62,157 bases of DNA, from assembly GCA_003164925.1 (NCBI GenBank), contig PLRV01000041.1, positions 1 through 62,157 of the forward strand. Direction: 5' to 3'. The position numbers and the translations under genes were made by a program. This DNA is from Caulobacteraceae bacterium (GTDB lineage: Bacteria; Pseudomonadota; Alphaproteobacteria; Caulobacterales; Caulobacteraceae). The notes below the pieces were generated by a model. The model did not search any database. It was not told the origin of the DNA and saw only the letters and a list, made by a program, of their open reading frames with translations. Below, piece by piece: positions 1,047 to 13,623 of the stretch (position 1 is the first letter of the stretch; each line of letters opens with the position of its first letter).

Positions 1047-2789
1047 ATGACCATCTTTCCGCCGTCTCGCGAAGAATTGTGCGATGAGCTGTCCAGGCTC
1101 CTGGACAGCAAGGTCTTTGCTGCTTCGCGGCGTTCTCAGCAATTGCTGGAATATTTTGTCAATCAGCTGCTGCTGGGGACGGCTGATCAAGTGAAAGAGT
1201 ACGCCATCGGCGTGGATGTGTTCGGCCTCGCCCCGTCGTTCAACCCTCAGCTTGACACTATCGTGCGCAACGAGATCTGGCGGCTGCGCAGCAAGCTATC
1301 GACCTATTACGACGGCGAGGGCAAGGGTAATCCCCTGCGCATCGGTTTCCGGTCGCGTTCCTTGGAGCCTGTAGCCCAATACCGGTCGGAGGGAACCCCA
1401 TCCGCGACGAGGTCGAGCCCCGTGCACTTGCTTCGACGCGTCGCCGTGCTGCCGTTCGTCGCCATCGGGCCGCAGGACGAGGCTTTCAACGACGGTCTGG
1501 CCACCGAGGTGATGGTCCGGCTGGGCGCGCGCAGCGACCTGCAGATTATCTCGCGCACCTCGTCCTTCGCGTTCAAGGGGCAGAACTGCAATGTGCGCGA
1601 GATCGCGGCCAAGCTGGACGCCCATCTGCTGGTGGAGGGCGCCGTGCAGATGGGGGACTGCGGCCTGCGCGTCACCACGCTCCTGACCGACGCGGCCAGC
1701 GGCGCACACATTCACTCGGCCACCTATGATCGAAAAGCCGCGCCCTCTTTGCGCATGCAAGAGGAGTTGGCGCAAGAAATCGCCGCGGACATCGGTGGCC
1801 TGTTGCTGCAGAGGGCCGGCGAGTCGGTGGGCGGCCGCGAGAAGAGCGCCTATTTGGACTCCCTGATGCGCATGCGCTTCCAGTTCAAGTATCAGCCGGG
1901 AGCGGCAGCGGAACTGGCCAATTCCATCAAATTCTTCCAGGCGGCCGCGCAGTCGCAACCAGCCAGCCGGCCGATACGCCGCGCCCTTTCCGTCAGCGTC
2001 GGCACCCTCATGTCACTCGGCGGCTCCGCGATACCGGCCGGCACGTCTCAGCTGTTGGCTCCAGCGGAGCCGAGGGACGATTACGATGAAATGGATCTCG
2101 AGAGGCGGGTGTGCGCGGGCATGGTCGCCATGTACAGGGGCCAATATGGCGAAGCGGCCGACCTGCTGCACCGCGCGGTGGAGCTGCATCCCGCCGAGAG
2201 CATGGCGCATGTGGCCCTGGGCATGCAGCTGTTGAACGCAGGCCGACTGGAAGAGGCGCTGCAGGCCATCTCTGTCGGCCAGAGCCTCGACCCTCTATCG
2301 GCGATCAATGCCGGCCTGTTGGCGGTGGTCTTGTTCAACCTGGAACGCACCGATGCTGCGCGCGAACAGGCCGCGCTTTGCCTGACGCTCGATCCGAAGA
2401 ATATAATGGCCCAGGTCGTGCTCGCGGACATCGAACTGATTTGCGGCCGGCGCGAAACGGCCTTGGACAAGTATTTCGAGCTTTGCCGGATGTCGAACGG
2501 ACATCCGATGGCCTTGGGAAAGCTGGGATATATCTATGGACTTGAGGGCAAGCGGTCCAAGGTGGAAAACATCCTCAATACCTTGCTCGCCCAGGCCGAC
2601 GAGCCCGGCCGGGTCGCGCCGTCCATAGCGCTGGCCTATCTGGGTCTGGGCGACGCCAAGAAAGCCCTGGCCTGGGTGCGGACCGCAGCGGAACAGAACG
2701 CGCTGATCGACATGATTCCGAGCATGCCGTTCTGCGACGCCCTCCGGTCGGACCCGAAGTTCACCGCCCTGATCCCCGATCTGCGCTGA
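1047..2789 (+). CDS. TolB-like/TPR regulatory protein
   Basis: A 580-residue cytoplasmic protein in three parts. Residues about 5-100 match the N-terminal module seen in many acidobacterial and proteobacterial TPR regulators (QVKEYAIGVDVFG, then IVRNEIWRLRSKL, a winged-helix-like segment). Residues about 130-255 form a TolB/FlgO-like domain starting RVAVLPF and including LLVEGAVQ. Residues about 345-570 are TPR repeats. It has no transmembrane span or catalytic motif. A purine-rich Shine-Dalgarno tract lies at 1027-1035. It sits immediately upstream of the SnoaL/TonB-receptor genes on the same strand, so a regulatory role over them is inferred from position only. Confidence 0.7.
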   Translation: MTIFPPSREELCDELSRLLDSKVFAASRRSQQLLEYFVNQLLLGTADQVKEYAIGVDVFGLAPSFNPQLDTIVRNEIWRLRSKLSTYYDGEGKGNPLRIGFRSRSLEPVAQYRSEGTPSATRSSPVHLLRRVAVLPFVAIGPQDEAFNDGLATEVMVRLGARSDLQIISRTSSFAFKGQNCNVREIAAKLDAHLLVEGAVQMGDCGLRVTTLLTDAASGAHIHSATYDRKAAPSLRMQEELAQEIAADIGGLLLQRAGESVGGREKSAYLDSLMRMRFQFKYQPGAAAELANSIKFFQAAAQSQPASRPIRRALSVSVGTLMSLGGSAIPAGTSQLLAPAEPRDDYDEMDLERRVCAGMVAMYRGQYGEAADLLHRAVELHPAESMAHVALGMQLLNAGRLEEALQAISVGQSLDPLSAINAGLLAVVLFNLERTDAAREQAALCLTLDPKNIMAQVVLADIELICGRRETALDKYFELCRMSNGHPMALGKLGYIYGLEGKRSKVENILNTLLAQADEPGRVAPSIALAYLGLGDAKKALAWVRTAAEQNALIDMIPSMPFCDALRSDPKFTALIPDLR

Positions 2790-2934: not shown

Positions 2935-3552
2935 GTGACAAAACATTTCTCGCGGCGGCTGGCGATTTTTGCTGTCGCCGGCGCGCTGGCTGCGCCGCAG
3001 GCTTTTGCTGCAGCGCCGCGCGCTGTTCCTTCAGAGTCTTACGCCGATACGCGCGCCCACGTCGAAAACCTTATCTCGCAATACCTGTGGGCGTTCGACA
3101 CTCAGGACGACGAAGCCCTAGCCAGCCTATTCGCGCCCGACGGCGAGGTGGTGATGAAGGGGGCCGACATCCCGACGCCGATGGTGTTTCACGGCCACGA
3201 GAAGATCCGTTCCTTCGTCGATATGATGCGGAAACGGACCAAGATGCCGCCGCATGCAGAGCTGCAATTCTCGCCCAATATTCACCTGACGGCCAACCTC
3301 GTGCTGACGGTGGATGGCAATAGGGCCAGCAGCAAGATCTACTGGTTCACCGTCCGGCGCGGAAACAACGTCGATCAGATCACCCTGCCAAATCCAAACC
3401 CGTCCTTCTTCGCCTCTCTGGGCCGCTATGAGCAGGAGTACGTGAAGCAGAACGGCAAGTGGATGTTCAAACGCGTGACCATCGCGGAGATGAACAGGGA
3501 CACTGTGGCCCCGCCGGTGACTGCGGCCCCCGGCGCCTCGACCCAGCCCTGA
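2935..3552 (+). CDS. Exported SnoaL-like (NTF2-fold) protein
   Basis: A 205-residue protein starting with GTG and carrying a Sec signal peptide ending near APQAFA (about residue 25). The mature part has the SnoaL_4-like pattern: an N-terminal helix pair (IENLISQYLWAFD type), DEALASLFAPDGEV, then the cone-shaped beta sheet ending KWMFKRVTIAE. NTF2-fold proteins of this kind include hydratases, isomerases and plain binding proteins, so no reaction can be assigned. It is only distantly like the two other SnoaL-like proteins in this locus (5928 and 13123). The next gene is the TonB-dependent receptor, 88 bp downstream, which suggests co-expression. Confidence 0.75.
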   Translation: MTKHFSRRLAIFAVAGALAAPQAFAAAPRAVPSESYADTRAHVENLISQYLWAFDTQDDEALASLFAPDGEVVMKGADIPTPMVFHGHEKIRSFVDMMRKRTKMPPHAELQFSPNIHLTANLVLTVDGNRASSKIYWFTVRRGNNVDQITLPNPNPSFFASLGRYEQEYVKQNGKWMFKRVTIAEMNRDTVAPPVTAAPGASTQP

Positions 3553-3640
3553 CGATAAAGTTCCTTCACTGATCTATCACGCACCACAACGACGACTGAT
3601 AAACAAAGCGATGTCGTCGCAAAAATGGGGAGAAAACAAC

Positions 3641-5872
3641 ATGACGACCATAAAGCGGCATTATTTGAAACTGATGGCCGGAGCCGCGGCGTGCGGACCG
3701 TTGATCTGGGCAGGTCCCGCCTTCTGCCAGACGGTTGCGAACGCTAGTTCGGGCGCCGCGGCGGCCACCGCTTTACCGGAGGTCGTCGTCACGGCCGAAC
3801 ACCGCGTCGGCAATGTTCAGCGCACGGCCGCTTCGGTCAGCGTGCGCACGGGTAAGGAGTTGGCGATTACCGGCCGCTACCAGCTGTCGCAGATTATCGA
3901 GGATGTGCCCGGTATCGCCGGCGCCGCGGCGACAAACTCCGGCTCGTCGTTCGGCGCTGGCAGCGACTCTCCGTCTTCCGGTCTGACGATCCGCGGAATT
4001 CCATCCAACTTGCCGGCCGGAGGCTCCGTGGTGGGCGTTGCGCCTGCGGCCGCCCTCTATGTCGACGGTGTGTACGAAGGATTGGGCGGCTCCTACGACA
4101 TAGATCGCGTCGAAGTTCTGCGTGGTCCCCAAGGAACGCTCTACGGACGCAGCGCCACTTCAGGCCTGATAGCCGTCAATACGGCCGACCCCCAACTCCA
4201 TAGCTGGGGCGGCAATGCGTCGATCGAGTTGGGTAATTACGCTCTGCAGCACTACACAGCGGCCCTGAACGCGCCGATCGTGGATGATGTTCTGGCCGTG
4301 CGGGTCTCCGGCAACCACTATCAGCGCAATGGGTTTTATTCCGCCGACGGCGGTTTCAACTCAAGCAACGACGCCAAGATCAAGTTGCTTTACGAGCCGA
4401 CTCAGAGCTTCTCGCTGCTGTTCGGCGCCGCGATCGAGGACAATATCCAGAACAGCGGCGGGACCACCGTCAACCTCGCGACGCCGAACTCCTACCAATA
4501 TGTGCCTACAGCCCTGGGCCCCGGCAGCAACGAAAGCCGACAATATTGGGCCTTGGCCAAATGGGACCTCGGTCCGGCGACGCTCACCTACCAACCGGCC
4601 TACCGCACGTTCCAGGAGAGCTTCGACATTCCCGTGAAGGCGGGCTCTCTCACGCTTAACCAGACGGGCTCCATAAGCAACGACCATTTCATGACGCACG
4701 AGCTGCGTTTAGCGTCCAATCCAGGCTCAATGGTCACCTGGCAGGTCGGGACGCTCTACTACGACAACAACCTGGCGAGCACCAGCAACCTGGTATTTGT
4801 TAGTCCGCCGTTGGGCCTGCTTTACAACGCCGACATCCCCAAGAAGGAAACCGAAGCGCTGGGCGTGTTCGGCGAAGCCACCTATCCTTTCGCGGATTCG
4901 TGGCGGGTGACCGCCGGCGCGCGCTACGACTACACCAAGGTGCAAGTCGAAGAGACTTACACAACTCAACCGCCGACTTTTCCACCACAGCTGATTTCGC
5001 AATCGATCGGCGGCGAAGCCGGCGAACGCCGCTTTTACACCACCACCTACAAGGCCCGGCTGGAGCATGATCTGACCCCGCAGAACTTGCTCTACGCCTC
5101 GGTTTCCACGGGCTTTTCTCCGGGCGACGTGACCCTCACGACGGGCCAATCGTCCAATCCGATCGTGCTCGATATCAAGTCCGAAATCCTGACGGCCTAC
5201 GAGGTCGGATCGAAGAACAGATTTCTGGAAAACAAACTCCAAGTTAACGGCGCTCTGTTCTACTACGATTACGGCGGCTACCAAGTCGCCAACATCAATT
5301 TCACCCCGCAACTCTCCACTCCCTCGTACGGCACGGTCAACATTCCGGTGAAGGCGTTGGGCGGCGAGTTGGAGATGATCTATCAGCCCACTACGGCTGA
5401 TCGCCTGAACCTCAATCTGGCTTACACGAACGCCTACTATACCGGGCGGTCCAGCACGATCGTCCCGACCGGCCCAGGGACCTCCGAGCCCGCCAGCGAT
5501 TTTATCGCGCTTGATGGCATTCCCAATGTCGTGCCGTTCACCGCCGATGCCGGTTACGATCATACCGTCCTGTTGCCCGGCGGCTCGAAACTGACGCTAC
5601 ACGCCGACGCGCGTTATCTCTCAGCGCACAACAGCAGCGGGGTGTCGCCGGGCCAGCTTGCCCAGGGAGCCTATCCCTACGTGCGCGTGGGCGACGAAGT
5701 GGTCGGCGACCTCAATGTCATGTGGGCGTACCAGAATTATTCCGTGGTCGGCTACGTCCGGAATGTGGGCGACAACCGGTATAAGAGCGCTGTGACGTTG
5801 AACGCGCAGGCTTACACCGTGACCCCCTATGATCCGCGCACCTTCGGCGTCGTTGTCAGCGTCCGCTTTTAA
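3641..5872 (+). CDS. TonB-dependent outer-membrane receptor
   Basis: A 743-residue receptor. A signal peptide (about 1-29) is followed by a TonB box, LPEVVVTAE, at 45-53, a plug domain with RVEVLRGPQGTLYG, and a long beta-barrel ending in the terminal aromatic FGVVVSVRF. An in-frame ATG lies 30 bp upstream at 3611, but ATG 3641 has a GGGGAG Shine-Dalgarno 8 bases ahead and gives a proper signal peptide. Such receptors import scarce large substrates using TonB energy. The barrel gives no obvious substrate class and there is no siderophore or SusD-type partner nearby, so the ligand is unknown. The downstream exported proteins are its likely partners. Confidence 0.93.
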   Translation: MTTIKRHYLKLMAGAAACGPLIWAGPAFCQTVANASSGAAAATALPEVVVTAEHRVGNVQRTAASVSVRTGKELAITGRYQLSQIIEDVPGIAGAAATNSGSSFGAGSDSPSSGLTIRGIPSNLPAGGSVVGVAPAAALYVDGVYEGLGGSYDIDRVEVLRGPQGTLYGRSATSGLIAVNTADPQLHSWGGNASIELGNYALQHYTAALNAPIVDDVLAVRVSGNHYQRNGFYSADGGFNSSNDAKIKLLYEPTQSFSLLFGAAIEDNIQNSGGTTVNLATPNSYQYVPTALGPGSNESRQYWALAKWDLGPATLTYQPAYRTFQESFDIPVKAGSLTLNQTGSISNDHFMTHELRLASNPGSMVTWQVGTLYYDNNLASTSNLVFVSPPLGLLYNADIPKKETEALGVFGEATYPFADSWRVTAGARYDYTKVQVEETYTTQPPTFPPQLISQSIGGEAGERRFYTTTYKARLEHDLTPQNLLYASVSTGFSPGDVTLTTGQSSNPIVLDIKSEILTAYEVGSKNRFLENKLQVNGALFYYDYGGYQVANINFTPQLSTPSYGTVNIPVKALGGELEMIYQPTTADRLNLNLAYTNAYYTGRSSTIVPTGPGTSEPASDFIALDGIPNVVPFTADAGYDHTVLLPGGSKLTLHADARYLSAHNSSGVSPGQLAQGAYPYVRVGDEVVGDLNVMWAYQNYSVVGYVRNVGDNRYKSAVTLNAQAYTVTPYDPRTFGVVVSVRF

Positions 5873-5927
5873 ACGTGGGCCAACTTTCAAGTCCAATTGA
5901 TAGATCGAACTCGAGAGGAGCACTATT

Positions 5928-6461
5928 GTGAGAGCGCCGAAGTATTTCCTGGTCGCTATGCTCGCCGTCCTGGTGGGGACAGCGGCATTGGTCACAAGCA
6001 CGCATGCCGGAACATATACGACCAAAGAGAAGGCGAACATAAAGCTGGTCGGCGATTTCTATGCTGCTCTCGAGCAGGATTATCTGCACGGCAGCCAGAA
6101 CGTTCGCCACATCGCCGAGCGGTACCTGAAGCCCGACTATATACAGCATATGGAGGCCGCGCAGGCCTTTGGCCCGGGGCGGGAAGGATATATCCGCATG
6201 TTCGAGCAAAAGCCGGCGGTGCCGCCCCCGGCGGGCGGTCGCGTAGCGCCTCCGCCGATGAAGGTGTTGGCGCTGATGGCCCAGGGAGACCTGGTGGTCC
6301 GCATCAACAGCCGGCCAGGCGGAGCGCCCGATCAAAGGCCGATCTACATATTCAACCTGTTCCGCGTACAGGACGGCAAGCTGGCCGAACACTGGGACGG
6401 CTATTCTCGCCCGATCGAGCAAGCCGCCCCTGCAGCGGGCGTCTCCAGCGGCGGGAAGTGA
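5928..6461 (+). CDS. Exported SnoaL-like protein, copy 1
   Basis: A 177-residue protein with GTG start, strong Shine-Dalgarno GAGAGGAG at 5913-5920 and a signal peptide to about residue 28. The mature part is NTF2-like of the SnoaL polyketide-cyclase type: PDYIQH at 69-74, GDLVVRI near 120, and a C-terminal strand pair with LFRVQDGKLAEHWDGYS. It is a clear paralog of the protein at 13123, sharing all of these motifs. It is the first member of a SnoaL-A-B triplet with only 5 bp to the next start. Function beyond the fold is unknown; a small hydrophobic ligand would suit the family. Confidence 0.8.
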   Translation: MRAPKYFLVAMLAVLVGTAALVTSTHAGTYTTKEKANIKLVGDFYAALEQDYLHGSQNVRHIAERYLKPDYIQHMEAAQAFGPGREGYIRMFEQKPAVPPPAGGRVAPPPMKVLALMAQGDLVVRINSRPGGAPDQRPIYIFNLFRVQDGKLAEHWDGYSRPIEQAAPAAGVSSGGK

Positions 6462-6466
6462 GTTCC

Positions 6467-7207
6467 ATGACACATGGACCCGTTGGCCATCGGCTGGGCC
6501 TTTGCGTGGCTGCCATGGCCGGCGCCTTTGTAGCTGTCGGGCTCGCGACGTCAGCCCCTGCTCAGGCCGCTACGCCCAATCTGGAAGGCGTGTGGAAAAT
6601 CGCCGCACCGACCAACACCCTCAAGCCGGTCGGCGGGGACCCTCCCTTCACCGCCGAAGGGCGCAAGCAATACAATGAGAACAAACGCCTGCAGGCCAAG
6701 GGGGCCTACGACGACTACGACATCACGATGTCACGGTGCAACAGTCCGGGCACGCCGCGGCTGATGCTGACGCCCGAACGCTTCAAGATCTGGCAGCAGC
6801 TCGGGGTCCTGACCTTTGACTTCGAATGGAACGGCGCCCTGCGTCAGATCGACGCCAGCGGTCGTCCACCCATAGTGGACCCCCTGGGCCGGGGGCTGGT
6901 CCCGACGATGACCGGAACCTCCAGGGGGCATTGGGAAGGCGATACCCTGGTCGCGCAGACCACCAACCTCTCCGACCGCACGCTGCTTGACGACCTGGTT
7001 CCCCACACCGCGGATCTAAAGGTGATAGAGCGCCTCCGCCTCTTGGACCGCGATACCCTCGAAGACCGCATCACCATTGAGGACCCCGCCTATTTCACGC
7101 GGCCCTGGGAGGCGGTGGTCATCTACAAGCGCCAGCCGGAGGAATTGTTCCCCCAGGACGTCTGTCTGGACCGTCTCCAAGCGCATCAACCGATTTTCCC
7201 GCAATGA
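6467..7207 (+). CDS. Exported protein of unknown family A, copy 1
   Basis: A 246-residue protein. The frame is open further upstream, but ATG 6467 lies 5 bp after the previous stop and begins a good signal peptide (to about residue 35). The mature protein is beta-rich with conserved marks LEGVWKIA, SRCNSPG (Cys91), GHWEGDTLV, EDRITIEDP, FTRPWEAVV and DVCLDR (Cys233). It is a paralog of the protein at 12373. Similar uncharacterised exported proteins occur in Acidobacteria and Caulobacterales; no reaction is known to me. The two conserved cysteines could form a disulfide. Its stop overlaps the first possible start of the next gene. Confidence 0.8.
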   Translation: MTHGPVGHRLGLCVAAMAGAFVAVGLATSAPAQAATPNLEGVWKIAAPTNTLKPVGGDPPFTAEGRKQYNENKRLQAKGAYDDYDITMSRCNSPGTPRLMLTPERFKIWQQLGVLTFDFEWNGALRQIDASGRPPIVDPLGRGLVPTMTGTSRGHWEGDTLVAQTTNLSDRTLLDDLVPHTADLKVIERLRLLDRDTLEDRITIEDPAYFTRPWEAVVIYKRQPEELFPQDVCLDRLQAHQPIFPQ

Positions 7208-7239
7208 TCCGGTTTAACTCTGATTTGGAGCGCCTCCAT

Positions 7240-8187
7240 ATGAGGGCTGAAATTTCCTGGCGCCACGGTCTGAAAGGGCTGGCCCTGGCGGGCGCCGCCG
7301 CGCTGGCGCTCGGCGCGGGCGCTGCGGGGGCGCAGCCCAGTGGCCCGCCGCCGGGTGCGGGCGGGCCTGGAGGTCCGCCGGGAGGTCAGGCGTTTGGTCC
7401 GCCTCCGGAACCGCCGATGCCCCCCGCCGAGAACCTGGTGGCTGAGTTGCCTGCACCCACGGTACCCCGCATGAGGCCCGTACCGGCTCCGGCCGCGGAC
7501 TCGCCCATGCCGGCCGCCGACCCACGTGACCTACGGGGGACATGGTTCCACAACCAGAGGCTCGAGTTCCGCATGCAGCGGGACATGTATGGCGTCTCCG
7601 TCCCCTACAACATGGATGGGGCCAAGGTCCTCGCCCGTCGCGTCACTTCGCTGAAGGAAGGCAAGCCGTACATCAACGCCTCCGCCATCTGCCGCCCACC
7701 CGGTCCGCAGTGGCAGCGCGATCTAAACTTCCCTTTTCAGATCTTCCAGTCGAAGGATTGGATCCAATTCGTGTTCGAGGAATACCACGGCCGCTGGCAT
7801 GTGATCCTGAATCCGGCCAAGGCGCCGCGTCCGGCCCAGAAGGACTACATGGGCTATTCGGTCGGCCATTGGGATGGTGGCACGCTGGTGGTCGAAAGCA
7901 AAAACTTCAAGCAGGCCCTCTGGCTGGATGTCGACGGCACGCCGCTGTCGGCGAACGGCAAGCTCATCCAGCGGATCCGCAAGGTCGACAACGGCGACCA
8001 CAATCCGTACCTGGAGATCATCACCACGATCGATGACCCGACCTATTACACGCGGCCCTGGTCGGTGGTCCGCACCTTCGGTTGGCATCCGGGCCTCACC
8101 GTCTTTAACGAATACAACTGCGAAGAGCAGATCGGAGACCCGAGCGTCAGCGCCGACGCCGGTCTCCTCCCCGAACCCCAACGCTGA
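7240..8187 (+). CDS. Exported protein of unknown family B, copy 1
   Basis: A 315-residue protein. ATG 7204 overlaps the upstream stop, but ATG 7240 gives a canonical signal peptide (cleavage near AGAAGAQ, residue 31) and has GGAG ahead of it, so it is preferred. A Pro/Gly-rich linker (about 33-95) precedes a beta-rich domain with LRGTWFH, ICRPPGPQWQRDLNFPF (Cys151), SVGHWDGGTLVV, TTIDDPTYYTRPW and EYNCEE (Cys294). It is a paralog of the protein at 11558 and shares the CxxPG, GHWxGxTLV and IxDP..YTRPW layout with family A. Function unknown. Confidence 0.78.
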   Translation: MRAEISWRHGLKGLALAGAAALALGAGAAGAQPSGPPPGAGGPGGPPGGQAFGPPPEPPMPPAENLVAELPAPTVPRMRPVPAPAADSPMPAADPRDLRGTWFHNQRLEFRMQRDMYGVSVPYNMDGAKVLARRVTSLKEGKPYINASAICRPPGPQWQRDLNFPFQIFQSKDWIQFVFEEYHGRWHVILNPAKAPRPAQKDYMGYSVGHWDGGTLVVESKNFKQALWLDVDGTPLSANGKLIQRIRKVDNGDHNPYLEIITTIDDPTYYTRPWSVVRTFGWHPGLTVFNEYNCEEQIGDPSVSADAGLLPEPQR

Positions 8188-8350
8188 ATAGGGCCAGATG
8201 GGCATTCAAGGTGGGGCCGCGCACCACTTTCCTTGGCTCCACACTTGGAGAGCGACGTTCGCGGAAAATGAGTGAGCGATGTCCCCACATTTGCACGCCC
8301 ACAAAATCGTCAAATGGGCGGGGGGCAAAGCGGGCTCGCCCTCCCTTTCG

Positions 8351-10000
8351 CTAGCCCCATTGCTCGACAGCGCCACGGCGTCGTCCGTTCTCTAAAACCG
8401 CTGTGGACAGGACCGGCATTTTCCAAATCGGTTTGGGGGTGGGCTTGCCATAGTGCCAGCCCTGACCAAGGGTCACCCCAAGCGAGCGGACCATCTCGAG
8501 TATCTCTTCCGTCTCGACCATCTCCGCAATCGCGATCGCGCCGAGCTCCCGGCAAAGTCCGACGACATGTTTGATCACCAGGGCGTCTCGCGGGCGGGTG
8601 GCGAGGCCCTTGATGTAGCGGCCGTCGATTTTGACGAAATCGGCATCCAAGCGGCTCAGATACTCCAGCGTCGCCGCGCCCGCGCCGAAATCGTCAAGGC
8701 AGATGGGGTGTCCGGCATTGCGTAGCGCAGTCAGGACGCCATTGGCCTTGGGCAAATCGTCGATCTTCTGGGTTTCGGTGATCTCGAGCAGCAATCTCGG
8801 GCGCAGGCCGGCTTTCGAGGCGGTGAGTTTTAGAAACTCATCGGCAAAGCGTGGCGTCATGAGTGAAATCGCGCTGATATTGACGGCGATTTTCACACTA
8901 CGTTCTGTCTGAGACAGCATTTCCACGACCTTCTTGGCCGCCGCAAAGTCGAATTCGAGAATCATCCCGAGTTCCTCGGCCAGCCGAATAGTCGCGCCCG
9001 GATCGTCCTGTCCGTCGAAGCGGGCAAGGGCCTCGAAATGGTGGACGCAATTGCCCTCCACGGCGATGATAGGTTGATAGACAAGGTGGAAGGTGCTGGC
9101 CGAGATGGTCGACCTGAGCACCGAGGCATCCTTCACCGTGCGCTCCATCATGACCCCAAGGTCGGCCGTGACGGCGGACAGGCCATCTTCGACATAACGA
9201 TTTAGCGCGTATCGCACGGCCCTCAAGCTGGTCTCAGGCGTCGAGGTGTCCAGCTCAAGCTCGGATGTGACCGGCGATACGCCAGCACCACAGATCTGTT
9301 CCAGGCGCCGCGACATCTTGGCGTCAGACGTCCCCGCGCTGCGCAGTATGGCGAAGCGATTATCGGCGATCTCGGTGGCGCCGACGCCTGAGTAGGACTC
9401 CAATCGAAGAGCCGCCGCGAGCTGCGATCGGGTGGCTTCGACCCCAGTCGAGTCGAGCGCCGAAAGGGCCGATGTCAGACCATCCAATTGGATAAGCGCC
9501 AAACGCAGCGGGGTCCCGGCCTGCCCTGCCTCAGCCATGATCGCTACCGTCGCCTCATCGAAGGTCTTGCGATCGAGCAGGCCTGCGCGGTTACGCGGGA
9601 ATTCGCCCAGTTTGGAGGGCGCGCCAAGGCTGAGGGCGCATGACAGGGCATTGGCGTTGTCCGGCAATCGAAACACGGACAACGACGCGGGCCGGCCCAG
9701 GCCGCCTGCCTGCTTTGGTTTCAGTACGACACGCAGCGGCCCCCGCCGATCCCCCGGCAGCAAGCTGACCAGCAGCGCTTTGAGGAGGTCGGCATTGCTG
9801 TCGCTGAGCAGAGTTGACCAATCCCGCCCGACGATGTCGCCTACCCCAACGCCGGCAATTTGCTCGGCCGCGCCCAGGGCGAAACGTATCGCGCCGGTCG
9901 GATCAACTTCGAACGCAAGGTCGGCCCCCGCGAAGGCTAACCCCAGAAGCTGAAGCTTCTGAGGACCTACTTGGGCTTGTCCCCGCTCAGGCAACGTCAT
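8351..10000 (-). CDS. EAL-domain cyclic-di-GMP phosphodiesterase
   Basis: A 549-residue soluble protein. Residues about 15-125 look like a PAS-type sensor, about 140-240 like a degenerate GGDEF fold without a GGDEF motif, and 300-525 form an EAL domain. The residues needed for Mg-dependent hydrolysis of c-di-GMP all appear present: EAL at 323-325, Asn374, Glu406, DDFG at 436-439, Lys457, Glu493 and Gln513. It should therefore be active. It is transcribed against the surrounding exported-protein genes and separates the two mirrored gene sets. Whether it controls them or is an unrelated insertion cannot be told from sequence. Confidence 0.9.
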   Translation of the reverse strand: MTLPERGQAQVGPQKLQLLGLAFAGADLAFEVDPTGAIRFALGAAEQIAGVGVGDIVGRDWSTLLSDSNADLLKALLVSLLPGDRRGPLRVVLKPKQAGGLGRPASLSVFRLPDNANALSCALSLGAPSKLGEFPRNRAGLLDRKTFDEATVAIMAEAGQAGTPLRLALIQLDGLTSALSALDSTGVEATRSQLAAALRLESYSGVGATEIADNRFAILRSAGTSDAKMSRRLEQICGAGVSPVTSELELDTSTPETSLRAVRYALNRYVEDGLSAVTADLGVMMERTVKDASVLRSTISASTFHLVYQPIIAVEGNCVHHFEALARFDGQDDPGATIRLAEELGMILEFDFAAAKKVVEMLSQTERSVKIAVNISAISLMTPRFADEFLKLTASKAGLRPRLLLEITETQKIDDLPKANGVLTALRNAGHPICLDDFGAGAATLEYLSRLDADFVKIDGRYIKGLATRPRDALVIKHVVGLCRELGAIAIAEMVETEEILEMVRSLGVTLGQGWHYGKPTPKPIWKMPVLSTAVLENGRRRGAVEQWG

Positions 10001-10602
10001 TGGAGAATCCGTGAGTATGGCGGCAGCCGATTAGACAAAAAATGAGGGCGCGCTCCCGTTCATCCCTATCTCGAGCAGCTTGCGCTCAATTTTCGCGTTC
10101 TCCGCCAAGGCGACGATGCGATTAGACATTAGGAAGAACATCCAGGGTTAATTTGTAGTGAAAAAATATCTTACCCAGCGGCGAGCTCGCCTCCGCAAAT
10201 CATAGTCCAGTGAATGAATCGGCATTATCGGGCAGCCCCAAAACATCCGCTTTGAAGCAAGGCGCGGGCGCGGCGCCTCACCGCATGGCGGTGACATTCC
10301 GTTAAGGATTTGTAAGTCATAGAGCCCAATAAATGAAGGCATCGGTTGCATAAAATACCTCTACTCAAGTCTATTTAAACACTGAAGCCGAACTGGAACG
10401 GCGAAACGCGCCAAAGTTAAGGTTCACCTCAGGGGTAAAAATGCAAAATTCCGCGTACTTGCAGGTTTTGCTCGATCTGAGCGAAGGAAAAATTGTGAGG
10501 CTCGACCTCATGGCGCCCCTGGTCATCACGACCGCCGACACCTGCTTAGCGGCCCGGTGGCCGGCCCACGGCGCTAGAAGGGGCTGACGCGGGCCAGAAA
10601 CC
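10001..10602. other. 600-bp gene-poor, AT-richer gap
   Basis: There is no convincing long gene between the EAL gene and the membrane protein at 10603. The stretch is visibly richer in A and T than its surroundings, with runs such as GTGAAAAAATATC and CCTCTACTCAAGTC. The motif GATTAGACA appears twice (near 10031 and 10121). It must hold the promoter of the EAL gene and of the plus-strand gene at 10603. One short reading frame with a good ribosome site is listed separately. Confidence 0.5.
10441..10587 (+). CDS. Possible small protein, 48 residues
   Basis: ATG at 10441 is preceded by AGGGG at 10431-10435, a well-spaced ribosome site. The frame encodes 48 residues beginning MQNSAYLQVLLDLSEGK and stops 15 bp before the next gene. 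The first half could form an amphipathic helix; the second half is basic. No homolog is recognised. It may be a leader or a real small protein, and chance is also possible. Confidence 0.3.
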   Translation: MQNSAYLQVLLDLSEGKIVRLDLMAPLVITTADTCLAARWPAHGARRG

Positions 10603-11376
10603 ATGAAGTTTGAAGAAAAAATCCATGAGATGCTGAGCCGTCGCGCGCCGCTTCAGCGCCCTCAGCCGCCGGCAAAGGTCAACCTTGGCAAGGATCTGAA
10701 GTGGGTCGAGCGCCGAGCGCAACGGGCGCGGGCGCGCGCGGCGATGGCTGGCGCGGCGATGGCCGGCGCGGAAACTATTCCCCAGCAGATAAGCCGCCGT
10801 CGGGGCCGTGTCCGCACAGTCGTCGTGTCGGTGCTGGGCCTTTCGTTGCTCGCCGTCGCAGGAGGCTTGGGCTGGGCCGTTCGGGACGCTTGGCCGACTC
10901 TCACACAAAGCAACGACGAAGCGGGCGTTTCGCCGTCCACCGCCGTCGCACCGCCGGCCCAGGCGGCGGCGGCGAAGCCTGCATCTCCATCCCCAGCGCC
11001 CGAAACCGACCTGTCCTCAGCCGTTCTTGCCTATACGGCGCCGGTCCAACCACAGCAGGCCGTCGACGGCGATACGCCCGCGCTGGAGATGAAAAGGACG
11101 GCGTCGGAGGCCATGCTCAAGGAGCAGATATCCGATCCGCACGGCCTAGTTTACCAGGACGTGCGGACCGTTTTGACGCCTCCCGAAGTCGACGATGGCG
11201 TCAATTTCTGCGGCAACGTCAACAGCCTCAATCCGATGGGGGCCTACGTCGGCTACCAGCGCTTCGTCAGCTCCGCCGACAGCGCTGTATTGGAGCACTT
11301 CAAAACGCCGGACGAGTTCGAGGAGATCTGGCGGCGCCGTTGCTCCGGAGCCCAGGGCCCGCGCATCTGGCGATAG
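10603..11376 (+). CDS. Single-span membrane protein, unknown function
   Basis: A 257-residue protein. A basic cytoplasmic part (residues 1-70, rich in Arg and Ala) leads to one membrane helix (about 72-93, VVVSVLGLSLLAVAGGLGW). An Ala/Pro-rich linker (105-165) follows, and then a C-terminal periplasmic domain with NFCGNVNSLNPMGAYVGY and a final WRRRC. The FCGxVN...GxYxGY pattern recurs in small exported proteins of alphaproteobacteria that have no assigned role. The two cysteines of the outer domain could pair. No partner gene is evident. Confidence 0.65.
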   Translation: MKFEEKIHEMLSRRAPLQRPQPPAKVNLGKDLKWVERRAQRARARAAMAGAAMAGAETIPQQISRRRGRVRTVVVSVLGLSLLAVAGGLGWAVRDAWPTLTQSNDEAGVSPSTAVAPPAQAAAAKPASPSPAPETDLSSAVLAYTAPVQPQQAVDGDTPALEMKRTASEAMLKEQISDPHGLVYQDVRTVLTPPEVDDGVNFCGNVNSLNPMGAYVGYQRFVSSADSAVLEHFKTPDEFEEIWRRRCSGAQGPRIWR

Positions 11377-11557
11377 GCGGCCAGCTTCGTAGCTAGGGTG
11401 ACAGTTACTCCTGTCCTCTGATTTATTTCGTCACCTATTTATGTTGCCTGATCCCACTCTATCCATACAGCGTTGGCGCAATGGCGGTGATGGCGCCCAA
11501 CCACGCTGAGCTTTCCCCGTCCGCCGCGCTACAAGCGTCGCCAACCGATGGGTGGTC

Positions 11558-12373
11558 ATGAAGTCGTCTTGCCTGGGGCGCCTGTTGCTTTTCGGCCTGC
11601 TGGCTTGCTGCGCCCCGGCGCAGGCTCAGCCGATCCCGCCTGGCTTCAACCCATTCCTCCTGCCGCCCTTGCCGCCGGACGCGCCCAAACCCTCCCCCGA
11701 TCCGCGGAATCTGGAAGGCGCCTGGTATCATCAGGACATGATGGAGGTCTTCCTGACCAAGACCATGCACGGCGACCCTGTGCCGATGAACGACAAAGCC
11801 AAGGCCCTGCTGCGCGAGCGGGCGGTCGCCGATAAATCAGGCCATCCCTTGGCCAATGCGGCGGTCCGGTGTCGTCCGCCCGGCCCGATCTGGCAGCGCG
11901 ACATAAATTTCCCCTTCGCCGTTCTGCAGATACCGGACGAAATCGACTTTCTGTTCGAGGAATTCCACGGCGTGTGGAAAATTCGCATGAACCAGCCGCA
12001 TCGACCTTCGGGGCGCCGCGAGTACATGGGCGACTCCGTCGGCCATTGGGAAGGCGACACCTTGGTGGTCGACACGACCAATTTCAAAGACGTGTTCTGG
12101 GTCAATTCCGACCTCACGGGCGCGCCGCTCAGCCGCGACGCTCATTTGGTGGATCGCATCCGAAAGATCGACGACGACGGCCCGGCTTTGAGCGTCGTTA
12201 CGACGATCGACGATCCCGCCTACTTCACCTCCCAGTGGTCCATATCGCGCAAGTTCATCTGGCGTCCGGACAGGGCGATTTTCGCGGAGTATGACTGCGA
12301 GGATGACGTGGGGCGGCCGGATGGCGTTTCGCGCTATGGCTTTTCCGACGCTCCGGGGCCGGGCGAAAACTAA
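11558..12373 (+). CDS. Exported protein of unknown family B, copy 2
   Basis: A 271-residue paralog of the protein at 7240. GTG 11552 is in frame, but ATG 11558 is the more usual start. A signal peptide runs to about residue 24 and contains CC at 17-18, which is not a clear lipobox. The mature domain has LEGAWYH, RCRPPGPIWQRDINFPF (Cys105), SVGHWEGDTLVV, TTIDDPAYFT and EYDCED (Cys247). The long Pro/Gly linker of copy 1 is shorter here. Its stop overlaps the start of the next gene (TAATG), so the two are translationally coupled. Function unknown. Confidence 0.8.
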   Translation: MKSSCLGRLLLFGLLACCAPAQAQPIPPGFNPFLLPPLPPDAPKPSPDPRNLEGAWYHQDMMEVFLTKTMHGDPVPMNDKAKALLRERAVADKSGHPLANAAVRCRPPGPIWQRDINFPFAVLQIPDEIDFLFEEFHGVWKIRMNQPHRPSGRREYMGDSVGHWEGDTLVVDTTNFKDVFWVNSDLTGAPLSRDAHLVDRIRKIDDDGPALSVVTTIDDPAYFTSQWSISRKFIWRPDRAIFAEYDCEDDVGRPDGVSRYGFSDAPGPGEN

Positions 12374-13092
12374 TGCGCGGAAATCCAGGCCTATGTCTTG
12401 GCGTCGCCTTGCTGCTGAGCGTTTGCGCCGGCGCGGGCGTGGCGCAGCCGGTTAATGATCGGACGGCGCTGGATGGCGTCTGGAAGATTGCCCAGCCGCG
12501 CGTGTCCCTGCCCCTGGAGAATGAAGCGCCGATCCCCTTCACGCCCGTGGGCAGGGAACAATACGAACGAAACAAGGCCGCCGCCTTGCGCGGCGACTAC
12601 GGATTTGATCCGACCCTGTCGCGCTGCTCTTCTCCCGGCATGCCGCGGATCATGCTCTCTGACCGACCCTTCAAGATTTTCGTCCGCGCCAACGTCGTGT
12701 CCATGATGTTCGAATGGAACCGGTTGCTCCGCCAGGTGAACATGGGCGCGAGCCCGTCGGAAAGGGTGTGGGGAACCGTCATGGGCGACGCCTGGGGCCG
12801 CTGGGAGGGCGACACGCTGGTGATCGACTCGCGCAATTTCAAGCCTGAACGGCTGCTCGACGACCTCATTCCCAGCAGCGAGCAATTGCGCCTGGTCGAA
12901 CACCTCCGCCTGGCGGACGCGGACACCCTGGACGATCGCATCACGATCACCGACCCGGACATGTTCACGCGGTCGTGGGACGCCGTGGTGACCTACAAGC
13001 GCCAACCGAAGCAGGCCTTTGCCGAAGACGTCTGTCTCGACCGCAAAGCGGCGGGGCAGGCGCCGTGGCCTGGCCGGCTAGCGCGCCCGTAA
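12373..13092 (+). CDS. Exported protein of unknown family A, copy 2
   Basis: A 239-residue paralog of the protein at 6467, starting inside the TAATG overlap with the preceding family B gene. The signal peptide ends near residue 24 (GAGVAQ). Shared features are LDGVWKIAQP, SRCSSPGMPRIML (Cys85), FEWN..LRQ, RWEGDTLV, LLDDLIP, DDRITITDP, VTYKRQP and EDVCLDR (Cys221). In the first set A precedes B; here B precedes A. A SnoaL-like gene follows 30 bp downstream. Biochemical role unknown. Confidence 0.8.
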   Translation: MRGNPGLCLGVALLLSVCAGAGVAQPVNDRTALDGVWKIAQPRVSLPLENEAPIPFTPVGREQYERNKAAALRGDYGFDPTLSRCSSPGMPRIMLSDRPFKIFVRANVVSMMFEWNRLLRQVNMGASPSERVWGTVMGDAWGRWEGDTLVIDSRNFKPERLLDDLIPSSEQLRLVEHLRLADADTLDDRITITDPDMFTRSWDAVVTYKRQPKQAFAEDVCLDRKAAGQAPWPGRLARP

Positions 13093-13122
13093 CGCCAAAA
13101 ACGATATAGGGAGGACCATTCC

Positions 13123-13623
13123 ATGAAACGTCTATGCCTCATGCTGTGGGTATTGATCTTGAGCGCCGTGGCCGTGGCGGCGCCGTCAATCGCATCCGCC
13201 GAAACCGCGCGAGAAACCGCCAACAAGCAGGTGGTCATCGGCTATTTCGGGGAGCTCGATCGGCTGGAAAAACTCAGCCACGATGAGGCCAAGAAGGAAT
13301 TACCCGCGGTCTTGGCCAAATATTGCCGGCCTGACTACATCCAGCATAACGAGAGCATGGCGGTCTACGGCCAGGGCGCGGCCGGCCTGATGAAGCTGTT
13401 TGACAGCGCGGGAGACAAGGCCTCGCCTGGCCCCGCGCTCGGGGCCTCGCACGTAATCACGGTCATGGCGCACGGCGACCTGGTGACGCGGATCAATACC
13501 CGCGAGATGCCCGGCCGGGCTGAGCCCCTGATGATCTTCAACCTGTTCCGCCTACAGGACGGCCTCATCGCTGAGCATTGGGATGGCTATTCGGGCGTGA
13601 ACCCAATGATGTCGTCAAAGTGA
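13123..13623 (+). CDS. Exported SnoaL-like protein, copy 2
   Basis: A 166-residue paralog of the protein at 5928. It has a strong GGGAGG ribosome site, a signal peptide to about residue 26 and an NTF2-type fold. Shared motifs are RPDYIQHNES (PDYIQH at 70-75), AHGDLVTRI and LFRLQDGLIAEHWDGYS. It closes the mirrored B-A-SnoaL set. Conserved Asp, His and Tyr in PDYIQH could line a pocket, but no catalytic mechanism is claimed. The convergent atp operon begins just downstream. Confidence 0.8.
   Translation: MKRLCLMLWVLILSAVAVAAPSIASAETARETANKQVVIGYFGELDRLEKLSHDEAKKELPAVLAKYCRPDYIQHNESMAVYGQGAAGLMKLFDSAGDKASPGPALGASHVITVMAHGDLVTRINTREMPGRAEPLMIFNLFRLQDGLIAEHWDGYSGVNPMMSSK

Follow-up and report, generated by a model that had tools for sequence, protein, structure and literature searches.

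Two three-gene sets in the window, the 62,157-nucleotide contig PLRV01000041.1 of a Caulobacteraceae bacterium (assembly GCA_003164925.1, hereafter the host), each contain a pair of genes, A and B, whose products are, judged by their similarity, two arms of one protein family, here called AB. Our preferred explanation is that AB proteins are exported barrels that work in heteropairs, with hydrophobic or aromatic compounds as ligands, as part of an undescribed envelope module, and we hold this explanation as a whole with evenly balanced confidence. It draws on observed homology, pairing, gene fusions, linkage and co-occurrence, together with predicted fold, export and N-terminal histidines, and its functional part is reasoned from these. 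From gene neighbourhoods and co-occurrence, the wider unit is AB together with two domains, DUF6152 (PF19649) and DUF6644 (PF20349), and the window is a receptor- and SnoaL-linked branch of it.

A and B as paired arms of one family

An earlier note on this stretch had described two paralogous sets, each with a SnoaL-like, an A and a B gene, on the same strand in reversed order, and both the description and its coordinates hold (Table 1). BLASTP gave 45% identity over 236 amino acids for A1 and A2 (E 1.6e-66), 42% over 262 amino acids for B1 and B2 (E 1.7e-76) and 38% over 164 amino acids for SnoaL1 and SnoaL2 (E 1e-30), so that the paralogy of the two sets is far beyond chance. The same note had treated A and B as separate, unrelated families, which is ruled out by BLASTP of the window proteins, where A and B match with 27-29% identity and E values of about 1e-14 to 1e-15. 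Strongly conserved motifs, W-x-G-D-T-L-V and D-P, are found in AB proteins; for the form GHWEGDTLVV no mention was found in the literature searched, to which this statement is confined. Neither A nor B reached the cut-off of any Pfam or NCBIfam family or had a PHROGs match at E 0.1, and the Pfam matches of A1 and A2 to PF21952 (E 0.05-0.07) and DUF7182 (E 0.41) were taken as chance.

Within both AB pairs of the window the start and stop codons overlap (ATGA at 7204-7207 for A1/B1, TAATG at 12371-12375 for B2/A2), a sign of coupled translation. Pairing was then counted for genes on the same strand with a gap of < 300 bases, using type labels A, B, B44, U and D from a single FastTree tree of 257 AB proteins (clade supports 0.906, 1.0, 0.958, 0.999 and 0.112, respectively); U and D are two types common outside the host. 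Among 25 adjacent host pairs, 23 were heterotypic (21 A-B and 2 U-D) and 2 were alike, with a random-pairing estimate of p 3e-5 for the 23 host pairs that remain when U-D is left out. Outside the host, 66 adjacent pairs comprised 46 U-D, 5 A-B, 5 of an unlabelled type with A, and 10 others, including 5 alike. Counts for outside loci here and below refer to the best 80 of 570 AB loci in named genomes, many of which run off contig ends. In 7/80 of these a U and a D protein are fused into a single protein of at least 521 residues with a U-type first half; a D-type protein is the best match of the second halves, with a U-type protein also in the top ten in six of the seven. An eighth double-domain open reading frame is of unlabelled type. 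Heterotypic pairing and fusions are usual signs of a stable heteromer, and the view that A and B belong together is supported by these gene arrangements.

A profile built from the four window proteins gave 63 matches in the 3.44 Mb host genome, from which open-reading-frame calling yielded the 61 genes in 29 clusters used here, a count that leaves out one 117-aa fragment on contig C38. AB was present in 41/150 genomes sampled from the same family and in 17/61 genomes of another sample. In that second sample each of the three same-genus genomes had 30 or more matches, and the 24 genomes from other families of the order had none. A phylum sample had AB in 10/299 genomes, the sole match in one of them (G028) containing internal stops; match numbers in these multi-genome searches are lower bounds. 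The best 80 named loci come from Proteobacteria, Acidobacteria and Gemmatimonadetes. A plasmid home was rejected, as tblastn of B1, the one query used, against 72,556 plasmid records gave no match at E 1e-8. Contig C349 of genome G085 (L142, L143) has DUF6152, SnoaL and a TonB receptor alongside ten AB matches, the result of either transfer or contamination (the genome is listed as 7% contaminated).

DUF6152 and DUF6644 as partners

In the host, 20/23 DUF6152 copies lie within 2 kb of an AB gene (5.3% expected, p 4e-23), under neighbourhood p-values that assume uniform placement and ignore contig ends; 3/23 have no AB within 5 kb. Outside the host, DUF6152 stands within 1 kb of AB in 55/80 loci. 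Across the 150 family genomes a strong DUF6152 match (E < 1e-20, a strong/weak split set after seeing the lists) occurred in 40/41 genomes with AB and 0/109 without it, weak matches occurring in 18/109 of the latter, while the phylum sample gave strong DUF6152 in 9/10 AB genomes, one genome with strong DUF6152 and no AB, and 25 with weak matches only; as the genomes are related and not independent, significance read from such counts is overstated. DUF6644, often present as two adjacent membrane proteins, was matched in 38/41 AB genomes and 16/109 others of the family sample, and lies within 5 kb of AB in 17/80 outside loci. One locus encodes a natural fusion of DUF6152 and AB (L153:7175-8320, minus strand), followed by two DUF6644-type genes. 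By these counts DUF6152 is a more constant partner of AB than SnoaL or TonB receptors are, and DUF6644 goes with DUF6152. The earlier note could not have noticed either domain, as neither occurs with the sets of the window. No DUF6152 is present on the window's contig, which counts against a need for it in cis, and 9/29 host AB clusters have none within 5 kb.

DUF6152 and DUF6644 were also found together in twenty AB-free loci (L182-L201) from genomes with weak DUF6152 matches. Among loci for which coordinates were available, ten were chosen from the 13 family genomes with both domains and ten from the 25 weak-DUF6152 genomes of the phylum sample, half of the twenty being located through DUF6152 and half through DUF6644. 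In 20/20 the gene immediately downstream of DUF6152, on the same strand, is of DUF6644 type, with a gap of <=47 bases or an overlap as drawn. From this gene order the two form a conserved two-gene unit independent of AB; weighing against such a unit, 5/18 weak-DUF6152 family genomes had no DUF6644 match.

All 115 DUF6152 open reading frames of the fetched loci contain His-His and a later xPH, and in 109/115 a signal-peptidase-like AxA site directly precedes His-His; the 19 host sequences from which the search model was built all carry HH and PH themselves. In 20/20 AB-free loci the same His motifs recur, His-His again beginning the predicted mature protein behind an AxA-like site. DUF6152 thus shows, by sequence, a histidine at the predicted mature N-terminus and a second conserved histidine, and a free N-terminal histidine with a second histidine is the histidine-brace layout (PMC10952591). 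Because His-His falls at the predicted mature N-terminus a metal site is suggested, which makes DUF6152 a candidate metal protein of copper type, copper itself being what we infer for the metal. No recurrent copper gene was noticed near the AB-free loci.

Four DUF6152 proteins scanned with Pfam (E <= 0.01) matched PF19649 and not CopC (PF04234). CopD (PF05425) was matched by 2/7 DUF6644 proteins at E <= 10 (E 2.3e-6 and E 0.04), the best at 28.4 bits against a cut-off of 32.1, so that none of the seven reached the Pfam cut-off for CopD. A profile search of the PDB with DUF6152 gave a match to the adhesin 6xi3 (E 2.5e-5), with no single stretch passing. For DUF6152, DUF6644 and PF19649 no mention was found in the literature searched, the statement covering that literature only.

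Two HupE/UreJ_2 proteins with a predicted N-terminal histidine are encoded 4-5 kb from AB (L053:1414-2628, minus strand; L043:14689-15888, plus strand), and weaker HupE/UreJ_2 matches occur in L090, L126 and L161. The Ang-1 domain of the HupE/UreJ_2 N-terminal-histidine architecture binds copper (PMC12537917).

Predicted barrel fold

AlphaFold models of A2 and B2 resemble fatty-acid-binding-protein (FABP) barrels: each arm had 50 listed structural matches, every one of them a FABP, a retinoid-binding protein, NanoLuc or a barrel of similar kind. A and B are therefore predicted, on these models, to form a closed up-and-down beta barrel of FABP (calycin) type. The B2 model, however, had no Foldseek match with E <= 0.001. 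PDB sequence searches gave neither arm a plausible solved relative, which, with the lack of any Pfam or NCBIfam match above cut-off, places AB outside the FABP and lipocalin families by sequence. The fold is a known one, yet the protein-family libraries searched yielded no such family.

SnoaL-like proteins and TonB receptors

The earlier note had linked A and B to TonB receptors and SnoaL genes and proposed co-occurrence across genomes as a check; the link stood in the host and was seen at few loci outside it. Host TonB receptor matches lie near AB in 13/31 cases within 5 kb (9.5% expected, p 2e-6) and 9/31 within 2 kb (p 5e-5), while the 1/31 within 500 bases is no more than chance. Host SnoaL-like genes lie within 2 kb of AB in 10/20 cases (5.3% expected, p 2e-8), two SnoaL matches within one open reading frame being counted once. 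In a tree of the 31 host receptors, 12/13 AB-linked receptors fall in two clades, one of 15 members (9 linked, among them the window receptor) and one of three (3 linked), with one linked receptor outside both (Fisher p 0.001, for clades picked after seeing the tree and with three linked receptors adjoining one another). Within 5 kb of AB at outside loci, SnoaL of this type was found in 3/80, this receptor type in 7/80 and an Oar-type receptor in 8/80, using a receptor model built from 18 sequences that may miss other types. The full set of A, B, SnoaL and receptor recurs in L054, in L055 of Novosphingobium sp. Rr 2-17 and in part in G085 (L142), while L053 has A-B-SnoaL with no receptor found.

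Given their scarcity at outside loci, SnoaL and the TonB receptor look like a lineage-specific elaboration, added locally, and SnoaL as a core AB partner was rejected on the same 3/80. The proposal that all three families act together was supported for A and B by their heterotypic pairs and seven fusions, and for SnoaL, within the host, by its linkage to AB.

Ten proteins near host AB clusters were picked by hand, with no control set, and six, encoded near four clusters, were of aromatic-catabolism kind (2 FAD aromatic-type hydroxylases, a BphC-type and a glyoxalase-family dioxygenase-like protein, an FAA hydrolase and an aldehyde dehydrogenase); the remaining four did not clearly belong with these.

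Origin of the two window sets

The two sets had been read as a mirrored duplicate of one three-gene cassette. Such an event would account for the same three families lying in reversed order within 8 kb, and SnoaL1 is indeed the best non-self match of SnoaL2. A1 and B1, however, are far closer to relatives on other host contigs and in two bog metagenome genomes, L053 and L054 (62-82% identity), than to A2 and B2 (about 45%). Among the BLAST rows of A1 and of B1, A2 stands at rank 17 and B2 at rank 18 (self-hit rank 0). In the tree, A1 groups with genes of contigs C35, C68 and C85 and with L053 and L054, B1 with L053, L054 and C85, and A2 with C55 and C10 genes, while B2 is the first branch of the 23-member B clade. 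For A2 and B2 the margin is small, with best matches at 44-53% against 45% to A1 and B1, and reversed order is common, B being upstream of A in 7/21 host pairs of A/B type. Because neither the tree nor the BLAST ranks make the two sets sisters, local mirrored duplication was rejected, and we regard it as very improbable.

A1 shares 76-78% identity with its relatives in the two bog genomes, whose best matches to the window's ATP synthase a-subunit reach 33% and 32% identity only, compared with 63% and 59% in two Caulobacteraceae metagenome-assembled genomes and 41% in Novosphingobium. By these values the host is Caulobacteraceae-like and the A1-type pair has probably moved between classes, a conclusion from sequence comparison for which a binning error may be an alternative.

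Other genes of the window and further neighbours

All genes of the two sets (5928-13623) have open reading frames on the plus strand, and their products are probably exported, judging by eye from hydrophobic N-terminal stretches. Pfam bore out the TonB receptor and the extra SnoaL-like protein that the earlier note had placed beside the sets (Table 1). The receptor has both plug and barrel domains, ends 55 bases before SnoaL1 and scored 15.3 bits for the SusC signature TIGR04057 (cut-off 46.2); the extra SnoaL-like protein had no significant BLASTP similarity to SnoaL1 or SnoaL2 among the window proteins. Neither SnoaL1 nor SnoaL2 exceeds the curated Pfam cut-offs for SnoaL (28.4 bits) or SnoaL_2 (27 bits), and some SnoaL-like genes near other AB clusters do exceed that for SnoaL_2. 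Of the label given to a gene called a TolB/TPR regulator, the TPR part held, TPR repeats alone reaching the Pfam cut-off; the first half of its product has no assignment.

Table 1. Features of the window and the matches on which their names rest
Feature	Position	Strand	Evidence or remark
Gene labelled TolB/TPR regulator	1047-2789		Pfam: TPR repeats alone reach cut-off, from residue 357 on
SnoaL_4-type protein, probably exported	2935..3552	+	PF13577 E 2.5e-21 (Pfam)
TonB-dependent receptor	3611..5872	+	PF00593 E 4e-25, PF07715 E 8.5e-10
SnoaL1, SnoaL-like, probably exported	5928..6461	+	SnoaL 20.8 bits, SnoaL_2 20.3 bits, both below cut-off
A1, A arm of AB family	6467..7207	+	45% to A2
B1, B arm of AB family	7204..8187	+	42% to B2
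EAL-domain gene	8351-10000	-	Between the two sets
Open reading frame	10603-11376	+	Between the two sets, after the EAL-domain gene; no Pfam/NCBIfam family above cut-off
B2, B arm of AB family	11552..12373 (alternative ATG 11558)	+	Modelled as FABP-type barrel
A2, A arm of AB family	12373..13092	+	Modelled as FABP-type barrel
SnoaL2, SnoaL-like, probably exported	13123..13623	+	SnoaL_2 24.9 bits (cut-off 27), SnoaL 13.1 bits

Further observations concern the surroundings of AB genes elsewhere. On host contig C33 (3211-4332, L037) an IS110-type transposase lies about 2 kb from an AB pair. In L133, L157, L159 and L161 AB is adjoined by PQQ-type dehydrogenase genes, identified by eye, and in L133 and L161 by a cytochrome c'-like gene too, one such protein matching PF01322 below cut-off; the neighbour names PQQ dehydrogenase, MBL-fold and cytochrome c'-like are mainly our own reading of the sequences.

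Proposed role and alternative explanations

We infer the heterodimer, the class of ligand, the metal and the direction of flow in the mechanism proposed here. The A and B proteins, encoded as a coupled pair, would probably assemble into a barrel-shaped heterodimer, to which a hydrophobic or aromatic small molecule would pass in the envelope once a TonB receptor has taken it up. In the host lineage many AB pairs would have been recruited to places next to TonB receptor and SnoaL-like genes, and the window would most likely encode the uptake of such a compound and its first handling in the periplasm. More widely, AB would normally be accompanied by DUF6152, as a small exported metal protein, and by DUF6644 membrane proteins; the window sets would have to draw in trans on one of the 23 DUF6152 genes of the host, or need none. 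A more ambitious version, which we consider improbable, makes AB heteropairs, DUF6152 and paired DUF6644 an undescribed envelope oxidation machine, in which AB would hold a hydrophobic or aromatic substrate imported by a dedicated TonB receptor and DUF6152, as a new histidine-brace copper protein loaded or reduced via a CopD-like DUF6644, would act on it; the module would exist in dozens of copies per genome, as polysaccharide loci do, for the consumption of many recalcitrant compounds of plants or peat.

As the main alternative, the same genes might serve protection of the envelope or metal homeostasis, with AB, DUF6152, DUF6644 and in places cytochrome b561 forming a system that is not nutritional and TonB receptors that import metal chelates or are bystanders. 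The N-terminal His-His of DUF6152, the DUF6152-DUF6644 unit in 20/20 loci without AB, the HupE/UreJ_2 proteins with a predicted N-terminal histidine near two AB clusters, the cytochrome b561-type genes near some AB loci and the precedent of BcnA and LcoA (PMC9113575) all speak for it, but cytochrome b561-type genes lie within 5 kb of AB in 2/80 outside loci only, and the dozens of AB pairs that have diverged within a genome, together with the diversification of a receptor clade, look like many substrates and not a single homeostatic task, so that we find a protective role somewhat unlikely. That A and B are themselves barrel-fold enzymes, of isomerase, cyclase or decarboxylase type, converting a substrate in the periplasm as part of a short pathway that also includes SnoaL, seems quite unlikely to us. 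The strong conservation of the W-x-G-D-T-L-V and D-P motifs, the barrel enzyme NanoLuc among the structural matches and the SnoaL-like neighbours in the host would fit such enzymes, and calycin-fold enzymes other than NanoLuc exist; the conserved residues could, however, be structural, and neither a catalytic residue set nor a relative solved by structure was found for A or B in the sequence comparisons.

The AB family matters in several ways. None of the three protein-family libraries searched has an entry for it, although a 3.4-Mb genome holds about 60 members and relatives occur in three phyla or more. Because AB and DUF6152 closely co-occur, progress on one domain of unknown function may inform the other, and DUF6152 can be tested directly as a candidate N-terminal-histidine metalloprotein of a new kind. 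Should AB turn out to handle aromatic or terpenoid compounds, this would help to explain how plant-derived compounds are taken up by some bacteria.

Comparison with known systems

Compared with FABP and cellular retinoid-binding proteins (iLBP, calycin fold), AB proteins are bacterial, longer, probably exported and arranged in heterotypic pairs, and have no plausible sequence match to a solved chain. Another likeness is VtrA/VtrC (PMC9214523), a periplasmic heterodimer that acts as a bile-acid receptor and has a lipocalin-like barrel, whose partners, as portrayed in the consulted sections of that paper, also come from overlapping genes and whose barrel is also periplasmic, bile-acid binding being a property of VtrA/VtrC. 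In AB, unlike VtrA/VtrC, A is homologous to B, and Pfam found no DNA-binding domain in either.

DdvT of Sphingobium SYK-6, a TonB receptor for a lignin-derived biphenyl (PMC6874591), provides a sphingomonad example of TonB uptake of an aromatic compound, although the consulted sections of that paper mention no AB-, SnoaL- or DUF6152-like partner. The lipocalin BcnA and the cytochrome b561 LcoA (PMC9113575) resemble AB in that a secreted lipocalin is tied to a cytochrome b561 gene; they differ in detoxifying lipid peroxyl radicals, with no receptor expansion described in the consulted sections.

For DUF6152 the nearest comparisons are CopC/CopD and the N-terminal-histidine "anglerases" (PMC12537917, PMC10952591), the former paper presenting, in the part consulted, four other N-terminal-histidine families. 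DUF6152 differs from CopC in that the scanned proteins match PF19649 instead, and the CopD matches of DUF6644 are below cut-off. It shares with these proteins a signal-peptide-like site just before the histidine and, like CopC/CopD, is encoded upstream of a membrane protein, here DUF6644, one member of which has weak similarity to CopD.

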